Assembly: GCA_031254365.1 (NCBI GenBank) | Contig: JAIRUN010000188.1 | Coordinates: 1-41,005, forward strand | Reading direction: 5' to 3' | Length of the DNA stretch: 41,005 bases | From: Treponema sp. | Lineage (GTDB): Bacteria; Spirochaetota; Spirochaetia; Treponematales; Breznakiellaceae | Shown here: positions 2,647 through 32,037 of the stretch, in pieces | Numbering within the stretch: the first letter of the stretch is position 1 | Layout: every line of letters starts with the position of its first letter | Position numbers and translations under genes: made by a program | Notes under the pieces: model-generated | Databases searched by the model: none | What the model was told of the DNA's origin: nothing | What the model saw: only the letters and a program-made list of their open reading frames with translations

Positions 2647-3984
2647 TCATTCTATTATCGGTACTTTTAGGACTTTTCCTTCGGGGAGAATTTGGTTAAG
2701 TTCCATGCCGTTTTCTTTGGCCAGACTTTGGGGATCAATGCCATAAAAGATCGCAAGGGACCAGAGGGTATCCCCCCTTTTGACAATATGGGTTCCTTCA
2801 AGGGAAAGAATATCTATATTTTTTCCCCCCTGATACGGCGCTATTGCTCCATCGGCTGGTATGATGATGGTTTCCCCTATTCTAAGGATACGGCTGAGGA
2901 TACCGGGATTATGCTGCTCAATCAGACTCAGGCTTACCCCATAATGACGGGACAGGGCCGAAAGGGTGTCTCCGTATTTTACTACATAACGGGAAAAACG
3001 CAGGAGATCGTTCCGTTTCAGGACTTCGCTGACCAGCGCCGCCTGTTCCGCCGGAACCTTGAGCCGGTAGCTGTTATCTGCCGGAGTGATACCCAAAAGC
3101 AGTTCCGTGTTCAGGCGGCCCAGCAAATCCCGGTCTATGCCGGTTTCTGCGGCAATAGCGTCCAGCGATGCCTGTTTTCCAACGGGAATGGCTGTCCATT
3201 CAAAGACATCAGGCCAAAAATCAACGCCAAAACGCCGGGGCTGGGACAGAATATAAGCGACGGCCAGCAGTTTTGGCACATAGTGAATGGTTTCATCCCG
3301 CAGTTCCTTTTGTTCGCAGAGCCGCCAGTAGTCGCGGCTTCCTGTCCGCTGCACTGTCCGGTTGATCGCGCCCAGCCCGGCATTGTAGGCAGCCAGCGCC
3401 AGCGGCCAGTTTCCCAAAAAGCGGTAGTTTTCCTCAAGTTTTCGCAATGCGCTAATGGTGGATTTCTGGAAATCACGGCGCTCATCCATCATGTCATTTA
3501 CTTTTATATCAAAGGGGGCGATGCTGTTCATCATAAATTGCCACAGCCCCACTGCGCCGGATCTGCTCCGCGCCGAGCTTTGGTAGCCGGATTCAATGAC
3601 CGGCAGGTACAAAAGTTCAGGCGGCAGGTTTCGTCGGGCGATTTCCTCCCTGATAAAAGGCAGGTAGAGGCTTCCCTTTTGGAGAACCGAGTTGAGCCAT
3701 GCGATTCCGCCGCGGCTGGAGTATTCGGCAATGTAGCGTTTGGTGAGCGGCTGTTCAAGGGCTTCGCTGGTCAGAAGCGGGTAAAGAGTGGCGGGTAAAG
3801 GATAGTGGGTAACAGACAGCGGGGCTTGTTCAGGCCGGATATTGCGCAGGGGACGGTTTATCACCGGGGAGGGCAGTGGCGAAACACCGCTTTCGTCATC
3901 CCCAGCCAAAAGACCGGCGACCATACACAGAAAGATAATCGCTGCCAGCAGTGTCCGCCCAAAGTGCGGGCTGTTCATAAGCAT
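2647..3984 (-). CDS. mltD: Membrane-bound lytic murein transglycosylase D-like protein with LysM domains
   Basis: SLT motifs (ESGYQSSARSRSGAVGLWQFM, LALAAYNAGLGAINR) and two C-terminal LysM repeats (YVVKYGDTLSALSRHYGVSLSLIEQHNPG; HIVKRGDTLWSLAIFYGIDPQSLAKENG). Start placed at 3984 (MLMNSPHFGRTLLAAIIFLCMVAGLLAG signal peptide) rather than the track's 4158, which overlaps alaS. Confidence 0.85.
   Translation of the reverse strand: MLMNSPHFGRTLLAAIIFLCMVAGLLAGDDESGVSPLPSPVINRPLRNIRPEQAPLSVTHYPLPATLYPLLTSEALEQPLTKRYIAEYSSRGGIAWLNSVLQKGSLYLPFIREEIARRNLPPELLYLPVIESGYQSSARSRSGAVGLWQFMMNSIAPFDIKVNDMMDERRDFQKSTISALRKLEENYRFLGNWPLALAAYNAGLGAINRTVQRTGSRDYWRLCEQKELRDETIHYVPKLLAVAYILSQPRRFGVDFWPDVFEWTAIPVGKQASLDAIAAETGIDRDLLGRLNTELLLGITPADNSYRLKVPAEQAALVSEVLKRNDLLRFSRYVVKYGDTLSALSRHYGVSLSLIEQHNPGILSRILRIGETIIIPADGAIAPYQGGKNIDILSLEGTHIVKRGDTLWSLAIFYGIDPQSLAKENGMELNQILPEGKVLKVPIIE
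3779..3813. repeat. Five heptamer units within the mltD coding region
   Basis: gggtaaa-gagtggc-gggtaaa-ggatagt-gggtaac; encodes LSVTHYPLPATLYPL on the minus strand. Confidence 0.7.
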
Positions 3985-3993
3985 TAGCAGATT

Positions 3994-4022
3994 ATTATAG
4001 AACATTGCGGCAATGTCGTCAA
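3994..4022 (-). promoter_or_regulatory. Putative sigma70-type promoter for mltD
   Basis: Minus strand TTGACG (4022-4017), 17 nt, TATAAT (3999-3994); ATG at 3984. Confidence 0.6.
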
Positions 4023-4023
4023 A

Positions 4024-4052
4024 TTGACCGCTTGTATTTGTTTTGCTATACT
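4024..4052 (+). promoter_or_regulatory. Putative sigma70-type promoter for alaS
   Basis: TTGACC (4024-4029), 17 nt, TATACT (4047-4052), 6 nt, ATG (4059). Confidence 0.6.
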
Positions 4053-4058
4053 GGAGCA

Positions 4059-5879
4059 ATGACAGCCGATGAACTTCGTACAAAGTATGTAGAATTTTTT
4101 GTGTCCAAAGGACACGTTCAGATTCAGGGAAAGTCCCTGCTGCCTGACAATGATCCAACGGTGTTGTTTACCACCGCCGGAATGCACCCGCTGGTTCCCT
4201 ATCTTTTGGGTGAGGAGCACCCCGCCGGAAAGCGGCTGGTTGATTATCAGAAGTGCATCCGTACCGGGGACATTGACAGTGTGGGCGATACCAGTCATTT
4301 GACCTTTTTTGAAATGCTGGGCAACTGGTCTCTGGGGGACTACTTTAAGGAAGGGGCCATTGAGATGAGTTTTGAATTTCTCACTTCCCCCAAATGGTTG
4401 AACATTCCCCCTGAAAAACTGGGGGTTACGGTTTTTGAAGGTGATGATGCGGTTCCCCGCGATGAGGAATCCGCCACAGTATGGAAAAAAATGGGTATCC
4501 CCGTAAACCGGCTCGCGTACCTTCCCCGCGCTGACAACTGGTGGGGGCCAGCGGGAAGCACCGGCCCCTGCGGGCCTGATTCGGAAATGTTCTACTATGT
4601 GGGGGAGGCTCCCTGCGGGCCTGAGTGCAAGCCTGGCTGTTCCTGCGGCAAGTGGCTGGAAATCTGGAACGATGTGTTCATGCAGTACAATAAAAACGCC
4701 GCAGGCGAGTATGTGCCGCTGACCCGCACCTGCGTTGACACGGGCATGGGCATTGAGCGGACAGTTACGATCCTCAACGGCAAGCAGTCCGTGTATGATA
4801 CGGAAATTTTTGCCCCCATACGCGGCGCGGTGGAAAAAGCGGCGAACTATGTCTATGGTTCTGACAGCGAGAAAGACAAATCCGTGCGGATCATCTGCGA
4901 TCATCTGCGGGCTTCGACTTTTATAATCGGCGACCCAAAAGCGGTCAGCCCCTCAAATGTGGGGGCAGGCTATGTGCTGCGCCGCCTTATCCGCCGGGCC
5001 GTGCGCCACGGCAGAAAGCTGGGTATTATCGGCCAAAGCCAGCAGGGAGAAGCCCCGTTCCTTCCACCCATCGCGGAAGTTCTTATTGAACAGATGAAGG
5101 GGCCCTATCCCGAACTGCTGGAAAACAGGGCCCGCATTATCGAAGAACTCAACCGGGAAGAACAAAAGTTCCTTGAAACCCTGCAAAAGGGCGAGCATGA
5201 ATTCGAGAAGCTCCTTCCCAATTTATTGAAAGACCCCCGCAAAATCATGCCGGGCCGCCTTGCCTTTAAGCTGTACGACACTTACGGTTTCCCCATTGAA
5301 TTGACCGAAGAACTGGCCGCTGAAAACGGAATGAAGGTGAACCGCCAGGAATTTGACGAGGCCTTCAAAAAACATCAGGAGCTTTCCCGCGCCGGAAGCG
5401 AGCAGGTGTTCAAGGGCGGCTTGCAGGATCACGGTGAAACGACCACAAAATACCACACGGCCACCCACCTTTTACATCAGGCCCTGCGCACGGTTCTTGG
5501 CGAACACATTGCCCAAAAGGGAAGCAACATCACCGCCGAGCGTATGCGCTTTGACTTTGCCCATCCCTCGGCCATGAGCCAGGAAGAAATCAAAAAAGTC
5601 GAGGATATTGTCAACGAACAGATTCAAAAAGACCTGCCCGTATCAATGGAAGTGATGGAACTTGACGCGGCAAAGGCCTCCGGCGCAATCGCCCTGTTCG
5701 GCGAAAAGTACGAATCCCAGGTGAGAGTTTATACTATCGGCTTACCGGATGTTTTTTTCTCAAAAGAAGTCTGCGGCGGCCCCCATGTGGAACGTACCGG
5801 AATTTTGGGGAAATTCAAGATACAAAAGGAGCAGTCCTCCTCGGCCGGAGTCAGGCGGATCAGGGCGGTTTTAGGGTAA
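4059..5879 (+). CDS. alaS: Alanine--tRNA ligase, short form ending at the editing domain
   Basis: MTADELRTKYVEFFVSKGHVQIQGKSLLPDNDPTVLFTTAGMHPLVPYLLG; editing motifs HTATHLLH and CGGPHV. Start corrected from the track's 4005. Confidence 0.95.
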   Translation: MTADELRTKYVEFFVSKGHVQIQGKSLLPDNDPTVLFTTAGMHPLVPYLLGEEHPAGKRLVDYQKCIRTGDIDSVGDTSHLTFFEMLGNWSLGDYFKEGAIEMSFEFLTSPKWLNIPPEKLGVTVFEGDDAVPRDEESATVWKKMGIPVNRLAYLPRADNWWGPAGSTGPCGPDSEMFYYVGEAPCGPECKPGCSCGKWLEIWNDVFMQYNKNAAGEYVPLTRTCVDTGMGIERTVTILNGKQSVYDTEIFAPIRGAVEKAANYVYGSDSEKDKSVRIICDHLRASTFIIGDPKAVSPSNVGAGYVLRRLIRRAVRHGRKLGIIGQSQQGEAPFLPPIAEVLIEQMKGPYPELLENRARIIEELNREEQKFLETLQKGEHEFEKLLPNLLKDPRKIMPGRLAFKLYDTYGFPIELTEELAAENGMKVNRQEFDEAFKKHQELSRAGSEQVFKGGLQDHGETTTKYHTATHLLHQALRTVLGEHIAQKGSNITAERMRFDFAHPSAMSQEEIKKVEDIVNEQIQKDLPVSMEVMELDAAKASGAIALFGEKYESQVRVYTIGLPDVFFSKEVCGGPHVERTGILGKFKIQKEQSSSAGVRRIRAVLG

Positions 5880-13335: not shown

Positions 13336-15156
13336 CTACTTCAAATAGATAAAATTCGTTTCCGCGCCGTTCAGGTTGTCGTAATACACATTGGTAAAAT
13401 CCCAGCGGTTACGCAGGGCCCAAAAACTGCGGGAACGCATAAGGTATATCAGCGGACTCTGTTCCAGCAGAATGGCCTGAAACTCATCCCAAATAACCTT
13501 ACCTTTTGCCGGGTCTATGGTATAACAGCCTTCGTTATACAGATAATCAATACGGGCCTCCCATTCGGTGGCGGGCTCCTCCTGATTGGGATTCCACAGG
13601 TGGAGGTTGCCCGATGAGGACCATACGTTGCTTCCCTGACTGGGAAAAATGTTCGAGCCTGAAAGTCCCATTATCATGGAATCCCAGGTAAAATTTGAGA
13701 ATAATTCTTCCACCAGTTTCTGGAAATCCATGACACGGATATTCACCTTGATTCCCATTTTGGATAATTCATCCCTGATAATCGAGGCGATGTCGTTATT
13801 TATGGTACTCTCCGAGCGGATAGCAAGGTCAAACTCTATGGCGCGGTTTTTCGCATCGCGCATGATCCCCCTGCGGTCCCGCTTGATGTTTATTGAAGCG
13901 AGCAGTTCTTCCGCCCTGACCGTGTCATAAAGGTATTGCAGACTGATGGCGGGATTGTAATAAGGGTTGGGTTCGGGGAAGATAGTAAATTTCGGTTCGG
14001 ACAGCCCCCGGTAAACCTGAGCGTTGATCCGTCCCCGGTTAAGAAGGCAACTCATGGCTTGCCGGAATTCTTTTTGAGTGAACCATTCATACTGGGGCTT
14101 TTCTTTATTTTGAGGATTTTGGTTAAAGGTCCAAAAGTTTGCGGAGAGCGAGCCTTCGGCATTGAACACGGTATATGTCCCGTCATTCCGGTTCACGAGG
14201 CTGTCCAGGTCTTCGGGCCGCAGCCGGTATGATTCGCTTTGACCTTCCCTGAACAGCAGCAGTTGGGTATTTTCATCAGGGATGATCCGCACGATGTTCT
14301 CTTCGATGTAGGGGAGGGAAAGGCCGTTTGTGTCTTTGCGCCAATAATCGGGATTCCGTTTGTACACCAGTCGCTGACCGGGGGTATACTCAACCAGAAA
14401 CCATTCGCCCATTGAAGGAATTGTTTTGGGATCAACGGCCACGCTGAATAAATTTTTTACGCCGTCAACGCCGCCCTGAATTTTCGCCGGCTCGTAAATG
14501 TGCCGGGGGCCAAAGTCCATGTTAGTCGATAAAAGGGGTTCCGCTACAATCCGGGGGAAATGAAAGGCAAAGCGCCGCTCATCGATTTTTCGTATATCCA
14601 CATGGGCCTCGCTGCCGTCAGGCATGGTGAGGAACTGCTGATAATAGGAAGAACTCCCCATAGCTTCATCGCCTGAAATTTCATTGTACCAGAAGATCAC
14701 ATCATCACTGGTTACTTTTACTTTTCGAGCCGATTCGTAATAGCTCCAGTACAGATCATCCCGCAGGGTGTAAACAACCGTAAGGGTGTTTGCTGTTTCA
14801 TCAACGAAAATATCCGGTGAAGCGGCGTGGGCTTTCCATTCACGGGCTACTACATCGTAGTCAAGGAGGTAATTGTGCATACTGCTCATTACCGCGGTTG
14901 TGGAACTGTCCTGTTCGGCTATAAGCATATTAAAACTTTTCGGGTCTTCGGGCATTACCGAATGCCATGTTCCGCCCAATCTGCCGGGCGCGAAATCTTC
15001 ACCCCGCCAGGGCTTGCTTTCTGTTTTCGCCAGAATCGCTTCAAGCCCTTCGGCATTGAGGGCCTCAAGTTCTTCAAGGGAGAGTTCCTCATGTTTTGAG
15101 CAGGAAAAAAAAGCGCAGCACATACAGAGCAGCGCAATGATGGAAAAATGTTTCAT
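13336..15156 (-). CDS. ABC transporter substrate-binding lipoprotein (family 5, peptide/oligopeptide type)
   Basis: Lipoprotein signal MKHFSIIALLCMCCAFFSCSK; SBP family 5 features (FRQAMSCLLNRGRINAQVYRGLSEP, YLYDTVRAEELLASINI, SSGNLHLWNP). Start corrected from 15213. Confidence 0.88.
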   Translation of the reverse strand: MKHFSIIALLCMCCAFFSCSKHEELSLEELEALNAEGLEAILAKTESKPWRGEDFAPGRLGGTWHSVMPEDPKSFNMLIAEQDSSTTAVMSSMHNYLLDYDVVAREWKAHAASPDIFVDETANTLTVVYTLRDDLYWSYYESARKVKVTSDDVIFWYNEISGDEAMGSSSYYQQFLTMPDGSEAHVDIRKIDERRFAFHFPRIVAEPLLSTNMDFGPRHIYEPAKIQGGVDGVKNLFSVAVDPKTIPSMGEWFLVEYTPGQRLVYKRNPDYWRKDTNGLSLPYIEENIVRIIPDENTQLLLFREGQSESYRLRPEDLDSLVNRNDGTYTVFNAEGSLSANFWTFNQNPQNKEKPQYEWFTQKEFRQAMSCLLNRGRINAQVYRGLSEPKFTIFPEPNPYYNPAISLQYLYDTVRAEELLASINIKRDRRGIMRDAKNRAIEFDLAIRSESTINNDIASIIRDELSKMGIKVNIRVMDFQKLVEELFSNFTWDSMIMGLSGSNIFPSQGSNVWSSSGNLHLWNPNQEEPATEWEARIDYLYNEGCYTIDPAKGKVIWDEFQAILLEQSPLIYLMRSRSFWALRNRWDFTNVYYDNLNGAETNFIYLK

Positions 15157-15162
15157 GGTTTT

Positions 15163-15191
15163 ATAGTAAAGGCTGTGGGGCGTGGTGTCAA
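15163..15191 (-). promoter_or_regulatory. Putative promoter for the ABC binding lipoprotein
   Basis: Minus strand TTGACA (15191-15186), 17 nt, TACTAT (15168-15163), 6 nt, ATG (15156). Confidence 0.5.
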
Positions 15192-19528: not shown

Positions 19529-20199
19529 CAGCGAACAAAAGCCGCATTGGTAAAAGCGGAAGTGAAATACCCGGCATCCTCAGCCCAGAGCGCAACAGTT
19601 CGCGCGTTTGAAGGAAGATTCAATTCCCCAACAGTGCCTGAAAGGCGGGAAAGTGTTATGGTTGAAATATGGTTCCCCTGTTCATTGTAACAAACCAGCC
19701 GGTTTTCAGGATATGCGGAATCCACCGTATAATTGCCGCCGCCGATTTCAAGGGTGGGGAAGGGGAACCGGGGTTCTTCCGGCGCGTCAAAAGTGAAAGT
19801 CCGCTCCGAGCGTTCTCCCCCCTTGTTTACCAGTACCGCCCGGAACTGACCCCTCGGCAGACTTGCGCCTTCATCCATAGCAATACTCCGGCTGCCGATC
19901 CATGTATTCCCGTCATGCGTATATGTTACCCAGTCCGCGCTCGTGAGCAGCCAGCGGAATTGCTCCCGGTCATGGTACAGGTACAACTCATCAAGATTTT
20001 CAATTCCGTCCTCATCTTCAGGAAGAATAAAAAAAGAAAAACGTTCCTGCGGCCTTACCCTGTCCTGATAATATGTCAGCGCAATAAAACCGTAGCTGAT
20101 CTTCGGTTCAGTCCGCGTACAGGAAATCAGCGGCGAAAGAAAACCCGCCGCGCAGAACATGACAACCAAAATATTCTGTAATTGTTTACGCATAATCAT
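19528..20199 (-). CDS. Putative lipoprotein of unknown function
   Basis: N-terminal lipobox-like VVMFCAAGFLSPLISC; overlaps both neighbouring genes. Confidence 0.65.
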   Translation of the reverse strand: MIMRKQLQNILVVMFCAAGFLSPLISCTRTEPKISYGFIALTYYQDRVRPQERFSFFILPEDEDGIENLDELYLYHDREQFRWLLTSADWVTYTHDGNTWIGSRSIAMDEGASLPRGQFRAVLVNKGGERSERTFTFDAPEEPRFPFPTLEIGGGNYTVDSAYPENRLVCYNEQGNHISTITLSRLSGTVGELNLPSNARTVALWAEDAGYFTSAFTNAAFVR

Positions 20200-20699
20200 T
20201 CTATATATGATACTTTTGATTCCTCAAAAAAACCTCTCCGTTCAGGGGCTTCATCAGGAGTTCCGATAGCAATAACATTGAACGGAATTTTCGGTTCCGG
20301 TATATTAAAAAGCTGGCGGATGGAAATGATCCGCTGCTCTCTGGGATAGACACCGCACCAGCAAGTGCCAAGGCCCATAGAAGCGGCCTCAAGGAGTATA
20401 TTTTGCGTGGCCGCGCCGCAGTCCTGGGGAAAATAGCCCACAGGATCGCCGGTTTGCGGGACCGCCACCACAATAATAGCGGCTGCCGCGGTTTGGCACA
20501 TCATCGCATAGGGATGAACCCGCACAATTTCATCAAGCGTTTCCCTCCTGGTAACCGCGATAAATTCCCAGGGACGCGAATTACAGGCGGACGGAGCCAG
20601 CATCGCTGCTTCCAGAAGCCGGTTAAGCTGTTCTTTAGTAACCGGTTTATCAGACTGATACTTTCTGATACTGCGGCGCTTTTCAAACAGTACGTTCAT
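20196..20699 (-). CDS. Nitroreductase family protein
   Basis: MNVLFEKRRSIRKYQSDKPVTKEQLNRLLEAAMLAPSACNSRPWEFI ... LGTCWCGVYPREQR. Confidence 0.9.
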   Translation of the reverse strand: MNVLFEKRRSIRKYQSDKPVTKEQLNRLLEAAMLAPSACNSRPWEFIAVTRRETLDEIVRVHPYAMMCQTAAAAIIVVAVPQTGDPVGYFPQDCGAATQNILLEAASMGLGTCWCGVYPREQRIISIRQLFNIPEPKIPFNVIAIGTPDEAPERRGFFEESKVSYIE

Positions 20700-20705
20700 G
20701 CCGTT

Positions 20706-20734
20706 ATTTTTTCAGATTTAGCCCTGAAAGTCAA
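20706..20734 (-). promoter_or_regulatory. Putative promoter for the nitroreductase-lipoprotein-trmB-ligA operon
   Basis: Minus strand TTGACT (20734-20729), 17 nt, AAAAAT (20711-20706; weak -10), 6 nt, ATG (20699). Confidence 0.4.
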
Positions 20735-21858: not shown

Positions 21859-21888
21859 TTGACTTGGGAAATGGCGAAGTGGTAAAAT
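21859..21888 (+). promoter_or_regulatory. Putative promoter for first DUF4230-like gene
   Basis: TTGACT, 18 nt, TAAAAT; GGATTGACTTGGGAAATGGCGAAGTGGTA is repeated upstream of the second copy. Confidence 0.55.
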
Positions 21889-21906
21889 AAGGAAAGGAGA
21901 TGAATA

Positions 21907-22518
21907 ATGAAATTTGCACAGGTACTAATAATTCTTATACTTGGTATTGTTGCCGGTATAGCCGGTGGCTTGTTTATAAGCAACAATCTCAATTTTGATT
22001 TTTTTAATAAAGAAACAAGTATGAATATTACTTCAACTGTTAAGGAAATCCTGCCCAATGCAGAATATGCAAGTCTGGTATATCATTATAGCAGCGTGAT
22101 TACTCATTCTGATTCAAATAAATTTTTCGACTTCAATATTCCTTTTACTGAAAAAAAAGCGATCTATACAATTGATGGCACAGTAAAATTAGGGTTGAAT
22201 TGCAAGGATATAAGTATTGACAATCGGTATAATAACATAATTCTACGTATGCCAGCAATTAAGATTTTATCGCATGAAATGTTTCCTGAAACATTTAGCC
22301 TGTATGACGAGCAGACAAGCATATTTAACAGATATGGCCTGAAGGATGCAAATGATATACAAATGGCGCATAAAAAAGAAATGGAAGAAAAGGTTAGTAA
22401 TAATTCAGGGTTATTTGTACAGGCAAGACAATCTGCTGAACAACAATTCCGTTTATTTATTGAAAGTATTCCGGGAGTAAAAACCCAATACGGTATTGTT
22501 TTTGAATGGCAAATGTGA
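21907..22518 (+). CDS. DUF4230-like membrane-anchored protein, copy 1
   Basis: N-terminal TM; IPFTEKKAIYTIDGTVKLGLNCKDI; paralogous to 22614-23237. Confidence 0.75.
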   Translation: MKFAQVLIILILGIVAGIAGGLFISNNLNFDFFNKETSMNITSTVKEILPNAEYASLVYHYSSVITHSDSNKFFDFNIPFTEKKAIYTIDGTVKLGLNCKDISIDNRYNNIILRMPAIKILSHEMFPETFSLYDEQTSIFNRYGLKDANDIQMAHKKEMEEKVSNNSGLFVQARQSAEQQFRLFIESIPGVKTQYGIVFEWQM

Positions 22519-22565: not shown

Positions 22566-22595
22566 TTGACTTGGGAAATGGCGAAATGGTAGGAT
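22566..22595 (+). promoter_or_regulatory. Putative promoter for second DUF4230-like gene (duplicated)
   Basis: TTGACT, 18 nt, TAGGAT. Confidence 0.5.
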
Positions 22596-22613
22596 GTTCA
22601 AGAAGGAAAAAAG

Positions 22614-23237
22614 ATGTTCTCAGGGTTTGAATTCGTTGTGATATTTATTATTTTGATATTGGGACTCGGTGTTGGTATATTTGTCGGCAAAAAACTGAAA
22701 TTTCTCAGCAAAGAAACTCATATCAATATTACTTCAACCATAAAGGAAATATTACCTGTTTCTGAATTTGCGTGTCTTGTGTACCACTATCGTGATGTGG
22801 TCAAGCATAAAGACAAGGAAAAAATCTTAAGCTGGCTTACCGCGCCATTTACCGGAAAAAAGGCAATTTATACTATCGATGGTACTGTTAAACTTGGTTT
22901 TAACGGAAAAGAAATCAAAATTAAAACCTCATATAATAATATTGTTGTCTATATGCCAAAAATTACAATATTATCGCATGAGATGCATCCCGAAACATTT
23001 GAATTGTATGATGAACAAACCGGCTTATTTTCAAAATATACCTTAAAAGACGCTAACGATATTGAACTGGAGCGGAAAAACGAGATAGAATCGAAAATAA
23101 CCAAAAATATCGATTTGTTCCGGCAGGCAAGAGAATCGGCAAATCAACAGTTTGCGTCCCTGCTGGAAAATCTTCCGGGTATTAAAGGAATGTATTCGAT
23201 AGTTTTTGAATGGCCGCCGCTGACGGTTGAAAATTAA
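22614..23237 (+). CDS. DUF4230-like membrane-anchored protein, copy 2
   Basis: TM then APFTGKKAIYTIDGTVKLGFNGKEI...; full-length similarity to copy 1. Confidence 0.75.
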   Translation: MFSGFEFVVIFIILILGLGVGIFVGKKLKFLSKETHINITSTIKEILPVSEFACLVYHYRDVVKHKDKEKILSWLTAPFTGKKAIYTIDGTVKLGFNGKEIKIKTSYNNIVVYMPKITILSHEMHPETFELYDEQTGLFSKYTLKDANDIELERKNEIESKITKNIDLFRQARESANQQFASLLENLPGIKGMYSIVFEWPPLTVEN

Positions 23238-28965: not shown

Positions 28966-31569
28966 ATGAGCTTTTCCGGCTTTATCGTCCACGCGTATCC
29001 GGACATCAGGCGGAACCGGCTCTACTGCGTAGGCCGCCTTGCGGACGGGCGTTCCTTTGCCGCGGTTGAGGAACACTGGCGGCCCTATATTCACATTTTT
29101 GAAGGCGACCGCTCTCGCGCGCTGCCCTTGCTTTCCGCATTGCGCTTTGAGGAATTTTCCTCCGAACTGGAAGCCTTTTCCGGTACGGAACCATTGCGTT
29201 GTCTGCGATTTTTCCGTTACGGCGACCGGTTAAAAGCCGTCAGTTTGCTGGAAGAAGCCGTCATTCAAAGCCCTGATGCCGGAATAAAACCCGCGGAACT
29301 TTTTCTGATTGAACGGCATATCCGGGGGCCGGTGATTGTGCAGGGACAGGATTCGCCGGGCAGACGGGTTGATCTGGTTATACGTAATCCTAAGTTTTTT
29401 GCGCCTGAACAAATGCTGCCTGAGCAGACCGCGCCTCAAAAGACAACGCCTCTTGAGGCGATTTCCCTGCGAATTGCTTCGGTTGATATTGAAACTGATG
29501 TAAAATCAGGTGTCATCCGCGCGGTAAGCGTGTCATGGGCAGATAATGTCGAAAATATCATTCAAGGCATAGTCCGGGTGGTATCCGGTGCCGAAAATCC
29601 GGCTTGTGATTTTATTTTTTATCACGTTGACGAAAAATCCCTGCTTTCCGCTTTTATCGAAGACATTCGCCGCGTTGATCCTGATGTGCTTACCGGCTGG
29701 AATTTTCTGGATTTTGATTTTCCCCGGCTGGCGGAACGCTGCGATTTTCTGGGCCTTCCATTTGTATTGGGCCGTTCCTCTGAACCGGCGAAATTTTTCC
29801 CCGGAGACGCGCCATCCAGCGGCTGGCAGTGGCGGCGCAGGTCAGCATCGGCCATTGTTCCTGGCAGGCAGGTTTTGGACGCATTGCGCATAATGCGGGC
29901 AGGAACTTTCGGCAGCACAGGCGGTTTGCGTGTTTCATGGGGAGATGAATCTGCCGCTGACTTTACACTGGAAACAGTGGCCCGAACCGTACTTGGAGAG
30001 GGAAAGATCGTCCATTCATCAGGTGAAGAAAAAATCGCCGAACTTGAAAAACTCTATACCGAAGACCCGCGGCGTTTTGGCGAATACTGTTTGCGGGACG
30101 CGGAGCTTGTTCTGCGGATTCTCGCAAAAACCGGCCTGTTTCGCCTGACGCTGGAACGTGCCTCATTGACCGGCGTTAGTCTGGACAAGGCGTGGACCAG
30201 CGTGGTGAGTTTTGAACGAATCTATGGAATGGAACTCAGGCGGAAGGGCATTGCCGCTCCTGCTGTTGATCCGGGGGCTGATGTTTCAGGCGCGGCCGGT
30301 GGAACCGTGCTTGATCCCATGCCGGGGCTTTTCAACAATGTGGCTGTTTTTGATTTTCGCAGCCTATACCCGACGATCATGCTGAGCTTTAACATTGATC
30401 CCCTTGCACACGCCCGCGCCGGAACACCGGGTGGCGCGGCTAACGACATGACAAATAACGCCGCGCCAATAATAGCACCTAACGGGGCGGCTTTCTCCCG
30501 CAACCCAGGACTGCTTCCCGCAATCATCGCCGAGTATTTTGCGGCGCGCCGCCGCGCCATTGATGCGGGGGATTCCATTGCCGCGCAGGTGTATAAAATT
30601 CTGATGAACAGTTTTTACGGCGTACTGGGAACCGGCGCGTGCCGTTACGGACGCACCGCGCTTGCCGGGGCAATCACATCATTTGCGCGGAAGTGGCTGC
30701 TCTTTTCGCGTGACTGGTTCAGCGAAAAGGGCTTCCGCGTACTGTACGGCGACACGGATTCCCTTTTTGTGGAGACGGATTTTAACGACAGCGCATCCTT
30801 TGGTGATTTTGCGGAACGCTGCGGCGGTCTCGCAAAAGAACTCAACAAGGTAATTGCGGAAAAAGTCCGCGCGGACTACGATCTGGAATCCCATATTGAG
30901 CTTCGTTTTGAAAAAGCCTACCGGCGTTTTTTGATTCCGCCCCTGCGGAATGTTCACGCTGATACATCCGAAGATTCTGAAGAAGTTTTGCGTAGCAAAA
31001 CTCCACGGGGCCGGGCAAAAGGCTATTCGGGTTATCTGATTCATGCTCCTGGCGAATCCGGTGAAACCCCGCCAAGTGTCGAGGTACGGGGCATGGAAGC
31101 GGTACGCAGCGATACCACTCCTTTGGCCCGCCGCCTCCAGCTTGAACTGCTGGAACTGGTTTTTTCCGGCTGCAGCGAGGAACAGTTCAGGGCCCAGGTG
31201 CAGCAGACAATAGAAGCAATGCGGGCGGGAAAACTCGACTCCGAACTGGTTTACCGCAAGCGCCTGTCCCGCTATCCTGAAACATACACCGCGTCAACGC
31301 CGCCGCAGGTAAAAGCCGCCCGCGCTCTGGGCTGGAAAAAACGGCGGGGAACCGTGGAATACCTCTGGACAGTAGATGGCCCGCTGCCAGTATCCCTTCC
31401 CCACGGAGCGATTGATTATGATCATTATGCCGCTTCGCAGGTTTTTCCCCTTGCCCGTTCAATCGCCGAGGCAGCGCATTGGGACCCTGATTTTTTCGCG
31501 CAGGGCAGGGCGCGTTCCGGGCGCGGTGCGGAATTCGCAAAAGGCCAGATAGAGATTGACTTTTCGTGA
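28966..31569 (+). CDS. polB: Family B DNA polymerase (DNA polymerase II-like)
   Basis: Exonuclease motifs SVDIETD, GWNFLDFDFPRL, YCLRDAEL; polymerase motifs FDFRSLYPTIMLSFNIDP, KILMNSFYGVLG, LYGDTDSLFVE; VRGMEAVRSDTTPLAR. Confidence 0.94.
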   Translation: MSFSGFIVHAYPDIRRNRLYCVGRLADGRSFAAVEEHWRPYIHIFEGDRSRALPLLSALRFEEFSSELEAFSGTEPLRCLRFFRYGDRLKAVSLLEEAVIQSPDAGIKPAELFLIERHIRGPVIVQGQDSPGRRVDLVIRNPKFFAPEQMLPEQTAPQKTTPLEAISLRIASVDIETDVKSGVIRAVSVSWADNVENIIQGIVRVVSGAENPACDFIFYHVDEKSLLSAFIEDIRRVDPDVLTGWNFLDFDFPRLAERCDFLGLPFVLGRSSEPAKFFPGDAPSSGWQWRRRSASAIVPGRQVLDALRIMRAGTFGSTGGLRVSWGDESAADFTLETVARTVLGEGKIVHSSGEEKIAELEKLYTEDPRRFGEYCLRDAELVLRILAKTGLFRLTLERASLTGVSLDKAWTSVVSFERIYGMELRRKGIAAPAVDPGADVSGAAGGTVLDPMPGLFNNVAVFDFRSLYPTIMLSFNIDPLAHARAGTPGGAANDMTNNAAPIIAPNGAAFSRNPGLLPAIIAEYFAARRRAIDAGDSIAAQVYKILMNSFYGVLGTGACRYGRTALAGAITSFARKWLLFSRDWFSEKGFRVLYGDTDSLFVETDFNDSASFGDFAERCGGLAKELNKVIAEKVRADYDLESHIELRFEKAYRRFLIPPLRNVHADTSEDSEEVLRSKTPRGRAKGYSGYLIHAPGESGETPPSVEVRGMEAVRSDTTPLARRLQLELLELVFSGCSEEQFRAQVQQTIEAMRAGKLDSELVYRKRLSRYPETYTASTPPQVKAARALGWKKRRGTVEYLWTVDGPLPVSLPHGAIDYDHYAASQVFPLARSIAEAAHWDPDFFAQGRARSGRGAEFAKGQIEIDFS
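30984..31002. repeat. Perfect small palindrome within polB
   Basis: AGTTTTGC-gta-GCAAAACT; encodes part of 'EEVLRSKTPR'. Confidence 0.65.
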
Positions 31570-31584
31570 TTATTGTAATATATT
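31556..31584 (+). promoter_or_regulatory. Putative promoter for the PTS EIIA gene, overlapping the polB 3' end
   Basis: TTGACT (31556-31561), 17 nt, TATATT (31579-31584), 6 nt, ATG (31591). Confidence 0.6.
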
Positions 31585-31590
31585 GGTAGT

Positions 31591-32037
31591 ATGAATCTGA
31601 AAACTGTACTCACAGCGGAAACTATCAGCCTTCATCTGAAAGGTTCCTCCAAAGATGAGATCATCAACGAATTACTCGATATATTGGTTGCCGCGAAGAA
31701 AATTCCGGACAGGGCAGCCGCACATAACGCAATATTGGAGCGGGAACAGAAGATGTCCACCGGCATGAAGCACGGCATCGCCATTCCGCACGGCAAGAGT
31801 CCTACCATTAGCGAACTGGTTGCCTGTATCGGAATTTCCGACCATGCGGTGGATTTTGATTCTCTGGATCATGAGCCCTGCCGGATTTTCATTATGACCC
31901 TTTCTCCGGTAGAAAAAACCGGTCCGCATTTGCAGTTTCTCGCGGAAATCAGTCTGCTCTTCAAGAGTTCTGAAAAACGCCGGGAGATACTCAATGCTGA
32001 TTCGGCAGAAATGATTATGCGGATACTTTCCGAATAA
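31591..32037 (+). CDS. PTS EIIA component (fructose/nitrogen type)
   Basis: ILEREQKMSTGMKHGIAIPHGKSPTISELVACIGISDHAVDFDSLDHEPCRIFIMTLSP. Confidence 0.88.
   Translation: MNLKTVLTAETISLHLKGSSKDEIINELLDILVAAKKIPDRAAAHNAILEREQKMSTGMKHGIAIPHGKSPTISELVACIGISDHAVDFDSLDHEPCRIFIMTLSPVEKTGPHLQFLAEISLLFKSSEKRREILNADSAEMIMRILSE

Follow-up and report, generated by a model that had tools for sequence, protein, structure and literature searches.

Promoters that abut start codons and predicted leaderless mRNAs at conserved genes of Treponema-like spirochaetes

Leaderless genes are already known as a kind, including in Leptospira. In Leptospira interrogans, dRNA-seq revealed about 440 mRNAs with leaders of <10 nt, 184 of which, at 30 °C, begin precisely with the start codon (PMC5243855). 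In Deinococcus-Thermus, a TANNNT −10 hexamer adjoining open reading frames (ORFs) serves as the promoter of leaderless mRNAs, as tested experimentally (PMC12340547). Zheng et al. 2011 surveyed TA-like signals in silico and, in the passages covered here, report leaderless genes in 6 of 18 Spirochaetes genomes, at a mean of 3.9% (PMC3160421). A leaderless route of translation is likewise known in bacteria, according to the portions of a review on which we draw (PMC9031893).

Here, we analyze a 41,005-nt stretch of Treponema DNA (hereafter the window), in which promoters are found immediately before start codons. The case resembles L. interrogans in that a spirochaete would have many transcripts that begin on the start codon or no more than 10 nt away from it. 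In that organism, transcription start sites (TSSs) were mapped and no −35/−10 motif was recognised, whereas here, in another order, there is a clear sigma-70-type promoter, from which start sites are predicted (PMC5243855). With Deinococcus-Thermus, our genome shares the placement of the −10 box next to the ORF, as well as a second, Shine-Dalgarno (SD)-type gene class in the same genomes; the layout there concerns ~30% of ORFs, whereas here it concerns ~11% of first genes and includes a strong −35 TTGAC (PMC12340547). The signal and the inference are the same as those of Zheng et al. 2011, although the passages of that survey covered here hold no Spirochaetes genes, orthologue conservation or order-level pattern (PMC3160421). 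Mycobacteria, as described in the covered parts of two reports, also have a substantial fraction of leaderless transcripts beside SD-led ones, but there the evidence consists of TSS maps and ribosome profiling, and the phylum is a different one (PMC3898074, PMC4633059). Our literature search found no TSS map for Treponema. The additions made here are the Treponema-like clade, the clear promoter, and conservation at the level of orthologues at alaS and EIIA.

The window corresponds to contig C9 in a metagenome-assembled genome (MAG) that is 84% complete and comprises 1.67 Mb in 191 contigs, with a GC content of ~49–50%. Its alanyl-tRNA synthetase (AlaRS) is 89% identical to that of the MAG Treponema sp. 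Nl494_bin32, and its other best matches are to Treponema/Spirochaetaceae MAGs, for which the bin names suggest a termite-gut origin. A preliminary description of the window had singled out four genes that share the layout TTGAC-N17-(−10)-N6-ATG. All four spacings proved, letter for letter, to be present as described. The features concerned, together with a divergent promoter beside alaS, are as follows.

3994–4022, minus strand: divergent promoter TTGACG-N17-TATAAT of the SLT/LysM protein gene (PF01464, PF01476), with no SD and a start codon at either 3984 (d = 9) or 3978 (d = 15)
4024–4052, plus strand: promoter of alaS, TTGACC-N17-TATACT, then GGAGCA and the ATG at 4059
4059–5879, plus strand: alaS, alanyl-tRNA synthetase (PF01411, by Pfam), predicted leaderless
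13336–15156, minus strand: family-5 extracellular solute-binding lipoprotein (PF00496, by Pfam), predicted leaderless
15163–15191, minus strand: promoter of the solute-binding lipoprotein gene, TTGACA-N17-TACTAT, followed by AAAACC and the ATG at 15156
20196–20699, minus strand: nitroreductase (PF00881, by Pfam), for which the leaderless assignment is weak
20706–20734, minus strand: weak promoter-like layout of the nitroreductase gene, TTGACT-N17-AAAAAT, followed by AACGGC and the ATG at 20699
31556–31561, plus strand: TTGACT, the −35 box of PTS EIIA, within the final codons of the preceding gene, for DNA polymerase B (28966–31569)
31579–31584, plus strand: TATATT, the −10 box of PTS EIIA, separated from the ATG by the 6 nt GGTAGT
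31591–32037, plus strand: PTS EIIA (type 2, PF00359, by Pfam), predicted leaderless, with an N-terminus conserved among orthologues

Here and below, d is the number of nucleotides between the end of the −10 box and the start codon. The boxes are TTGACA/TATAAT-like and lie 16–18 nt apart, as in sigma-70-type promoters. Three of the four named genes have a good −10 hexamer (TATACT, TATATT and TACTAT) at d = 6. The fourth box, AAAAAT of the nitroreductase gene, is weak, matching at 4 of 6 positions and missing the first T of TANNNT; to this extent the preliminary description has to be qualified.

It had also proposed that the genome be scanned for a spike at 6 nt, and such a spike is found. The exact pattern TTGAC-N18-TANNNT-N6-ATG has 11 matches in the 1.67-Mb genome, compared with 0 for the reversed pattern. 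With the last gap allowed any length between 0 and 30, the sole peak in the host genome is at d = 6 (11 versus a mean of ~2 at other spacings). Three of the 11 exact matches fall within the window, which makes up 2.5% of the genome, so the layout is over-represented there. About half of the genome (818 kb) was analyzed with genes called by a coding-potential model blind to upstream motifs. In this set, TANNNT lies at −12 in 41 of 575 genes, versus 12.4 expected (Poisson p = 1.2e-10). The spike is seen in first genes (31 versus 8.1 expected) and is absent from genes inside operons in the same half of the genome (3 versus 2.4). It has a companion at −35, where TTG[AC] occurs 22 times versus 6.9 expected. 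E. coli K-12, handled identically, has no spike of TANNNT at −12 (1 versus 4.1 expected).

A sigma-70 weight matrix, applied at 8 bits with dinucleotide shuffles as control, gives the same picture. In first genes it finds 15 sites at d = 6, 8 at d = 7 and 5 at d = 8, compared with 0.30 per position in the shuffles; few sites lie at d = 9–15, and a second group begins at d = 16. The counts at d = 6 and 7 are 6 and 6 in T. vincentii, and 0 and 1 in E. coli. Enrichment at d = 6 is thus above the shuffled, positional and reversed controls alike, and is confined to promoter-proximal genes, to the exclusion of those within operons.

Each first gene was also assigned its best promoter at 7 bits (272 first genes, 145 of them with a recognisable promoter). 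This promoter lies at d = 5–8 in 32 of the 272 (11.8%, or 22% of the 145), a fraction that is approximate and probably a lower bound, because the gene caller gives the exact start in 24 of 37 E. coli genes (~65%) and errs mostly downstream. The genes with d = 5–8 include those for AlaRS, LeuRS, HisRS, MutL, Lgt and HPr kinase, as well as V-ATPase subunit D, citrate synthase, DAHP synthase and a U32 peptidase. An SD core precedes only 1 of the 32 genes with d = 5–8, compared with 19 of 35 at d = 15–29 and 31 of 67 at d = 30–94, in line with the earlier suggestion that the genome uses two modes of translation initiation. The paucity of SDs at d = 5–8, like their absence from three of the four window genes, stands as an observation, but geometry accounts for part of it: a −10 box at −12 to −7 sits where the SD would be, and we therefore rejected SD absence as independent support. 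As a separate matter, the second promoter group among first genes of the host, at d of ~16–28, predicts leaders of ~10–20 nt, with the SD close to the 5′ end of the mRNA; predicted leaders of 3–9 nt look rare in these genes.

In sigma-70 promoters, transcription normally begins at a distance from the −10 hexamer that, for a hexamer at −12 to −7, coincides with the A of the ATG. We propose that, in a subset of genes, housekeeping-sigma promoters (TTGAC-N17-TANNNT) place the −10 hexamer at just this position, such that transcription by RNA polymerase would begin at the A of the ATG or no more than a few bases away. The resulting mRNAs would have essentially no 5′ leader and no SD, and their 5′-terminal AUG would be recognised by a 70S ribosome with initiator tRNA, through leaderless initiation. 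The ordinary SD route would be used by promoter-distal genes and by first genes with leaders of ~9 nt or more. Leaderless transcription from promoters that abut the start codon is, very probably, the correct explanation of the layout, with the start site on the A deduced from the position of the −10 box, and as the best explanation it is predicted for at least ~11% of first genes. The preliminary description had come to the same reading, which gains support from the confinement of the spike to first genes, the companion spike at −35, the absence of the TANNNT spike from E. coli and the recurrence of the d = 6 excess in all of the 100 genomes described below, the nitroreductase gene being a weak case.

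Orthologues were compared for EIIA and alaS, rather than for the lipoprotein or nitroreductase; for the latter, a degenerate N-terminus pattern proved too strict and matched the window's own gene alone. Sequences in this comparison are related and not independent, and the counts that follow describe conservation and are not probabilities. TTGAC is kept in 30 of 30 EIIA orthologues, down to 68% protein identity. In 29 of the 30, the best-scoring promoter lies before the conserved ATG at d = 6 (16 orthologues), 7 (6), 9 (6) or 10 (1). In the exception, locus L258, the top score is at d = 1, although TTGACTTTT is also present upstream. An alignment of the EIIA sequences anchored at the −35 box shows no variation in TTGAC and 1.65–1.79 bits at the T, A and last T of the −10 box, as opposed to 0–0.3 bit over most of the spacer and upstream flank. 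For alaS, a −10 box is found at d = 6–10 in 19 of 24 spirochaete orthologues versus 2 of 31 scorable outgroup genes. The N-termini of AlaRS and EIIA are conserved from residue 1 in relatives.

The same layout is seen well beyond the host. In 100 genomes (the host and its relatives), TTGAC-N18-TANNNT occurs 1731 times at d = 6 versus 333 times at d = 12, the corresponding reversed patterns giving 88 and 86; the count at d = 6 exceeds that at d = 12 in 100 of 100 genomes. Across the phylum (247 genomes), the excess at d = 6 is broad but uneven. By family, the counts at d = 6 versus d = 12 are 529 versus 79 in f3, 431 versus 111 in f22 and 83 versus 19 in f42. Family f7 (16 genomes of 0.9–1.8 Mb) shows no enrichment of the layout (17 versus 12 at d = 6 versus d = 12); it is possible that the layout was lost there, or that the promoter consensus is different. 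At the other extreme, a separate genome of the same family as the host, G250, has 106 sites at d = 6 versus 8 at d = 12, far above the other relatives, and among the sites listed for it there are peaks at d = 6 (24) and d = 7 (12). The G250 lineage may use leaderless mRNAs heavily.

Several other explanations can be considered. One is that the transcripts have very short leaders (1–5 nt), or that most translation uses SD-independent (e.g., S1-assisted) initiation on longer transcripts, from read-through or from upstream, with the close promoter in a secondary role. In some EIIA and alaS orthologues d is as high as 9–10, and EIIA lies 21 nt downstream of a same-strand gene, such that a read-through transcript from the latter is possible. 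Against this, the mode is at d = 6–7 and the spike appears in first genes, not inside operons. At alaS, moreover, the neighbouring gene is divergent, and the gap of 53–74 nt is occupied by the two back-to-back promoters, with scant space for another. We regard this account as unlikely in general, although individual EIIA and alaS orthologues, with d of 6–10, may carry leaders of 1–4 nt. We give considerably less credence to the idea that the promoters are real but the true translation starts lie further downstream, which would make the transcripts leadered. Start choice by coding potential is indeed imperfect, as the E. coli benchmark indicates, but conservation of AlaRS and EIIA from the first residue argues against misplaced starts, and the spike was measured with starts picked blind to upstream motifs. 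Coincidence, whereby AT-rich DNA before starts would yield TANNNT and TTGAC by chance for a reader to pick out, can be discounted almost entirely: upstream regions do tend to be AT-rich and 3 of the 11 exact genome matches are in the window, but the peak is one position wide, occurs in first genes only, has a counterpart at −35, is missing in E. coli, and stands far above the dinucleotide shuffles, reversed patterns and positional control; EIIA orthologues conserve the boxes and not the flanks, and the excess of d = 6 over d = 12 recurs in every one of the 100 genomes.

On the evidence of the genome comparisons, the promoter-on-start-codon layout appears to be widespread and to be retained at the same genes throughout the order. 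A further proposal, which we make tentatively and with somewhat less than even confidence, is that leaderlessness is conserved and selected at particular orthologues (at least alaS and EIIA) throughout Spirochaetales while the flanks turn over, and is strongly expanded in some lineages (G250) and not enriched in f7. Leaderless mRNAs would then be a maintained class, and not a product of promoter drift. If our interpretation is true, core genes of Treponema-like spirochaetes (those for AlaRS, LeuRS, HisRS, MutL, Lgt, HPr kinase, EIIA and others) are expressed from leaderless mRNAs, which would bear on gene-start annotation, on start-codon choice by the ribosome, and on which genes stay translated under stress. 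Conservation at the level of orthologues provides a short list of candidate genes for cultured Treponema, and the families that differ provide a natural comparison.

Finally, several smaller features deserve mention. In the EIIA orthologues (window positions 31556–31564; loci L239–L268), TTTT is conserved just 3′ of the −35 box, at 1.3–1.4 bits, and further promoters of G250 also contain TTGACTTTT; the TTTT is possibly an extended −35 element. The gene directly upstream of EIIA encodes a bacterial family-B DNA polymerase (PF00136, PF03104). A single nucleotide separates the −35 boxes of alaS (4024, plus strand) and the SLT/LysM gene (4022, minus strand), which belong to back-to-back divergent promoters within window positions 3976–4059. 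Elsewhere in the window, two adjacent DUF4230 genes have a nearly identical promoter stretch, TTGACTTGGGAAATGGCGAARTGGTA (21859–21911 and 22566–22616), and the pair apparently arose by a tandem duplication that took in the promoter.
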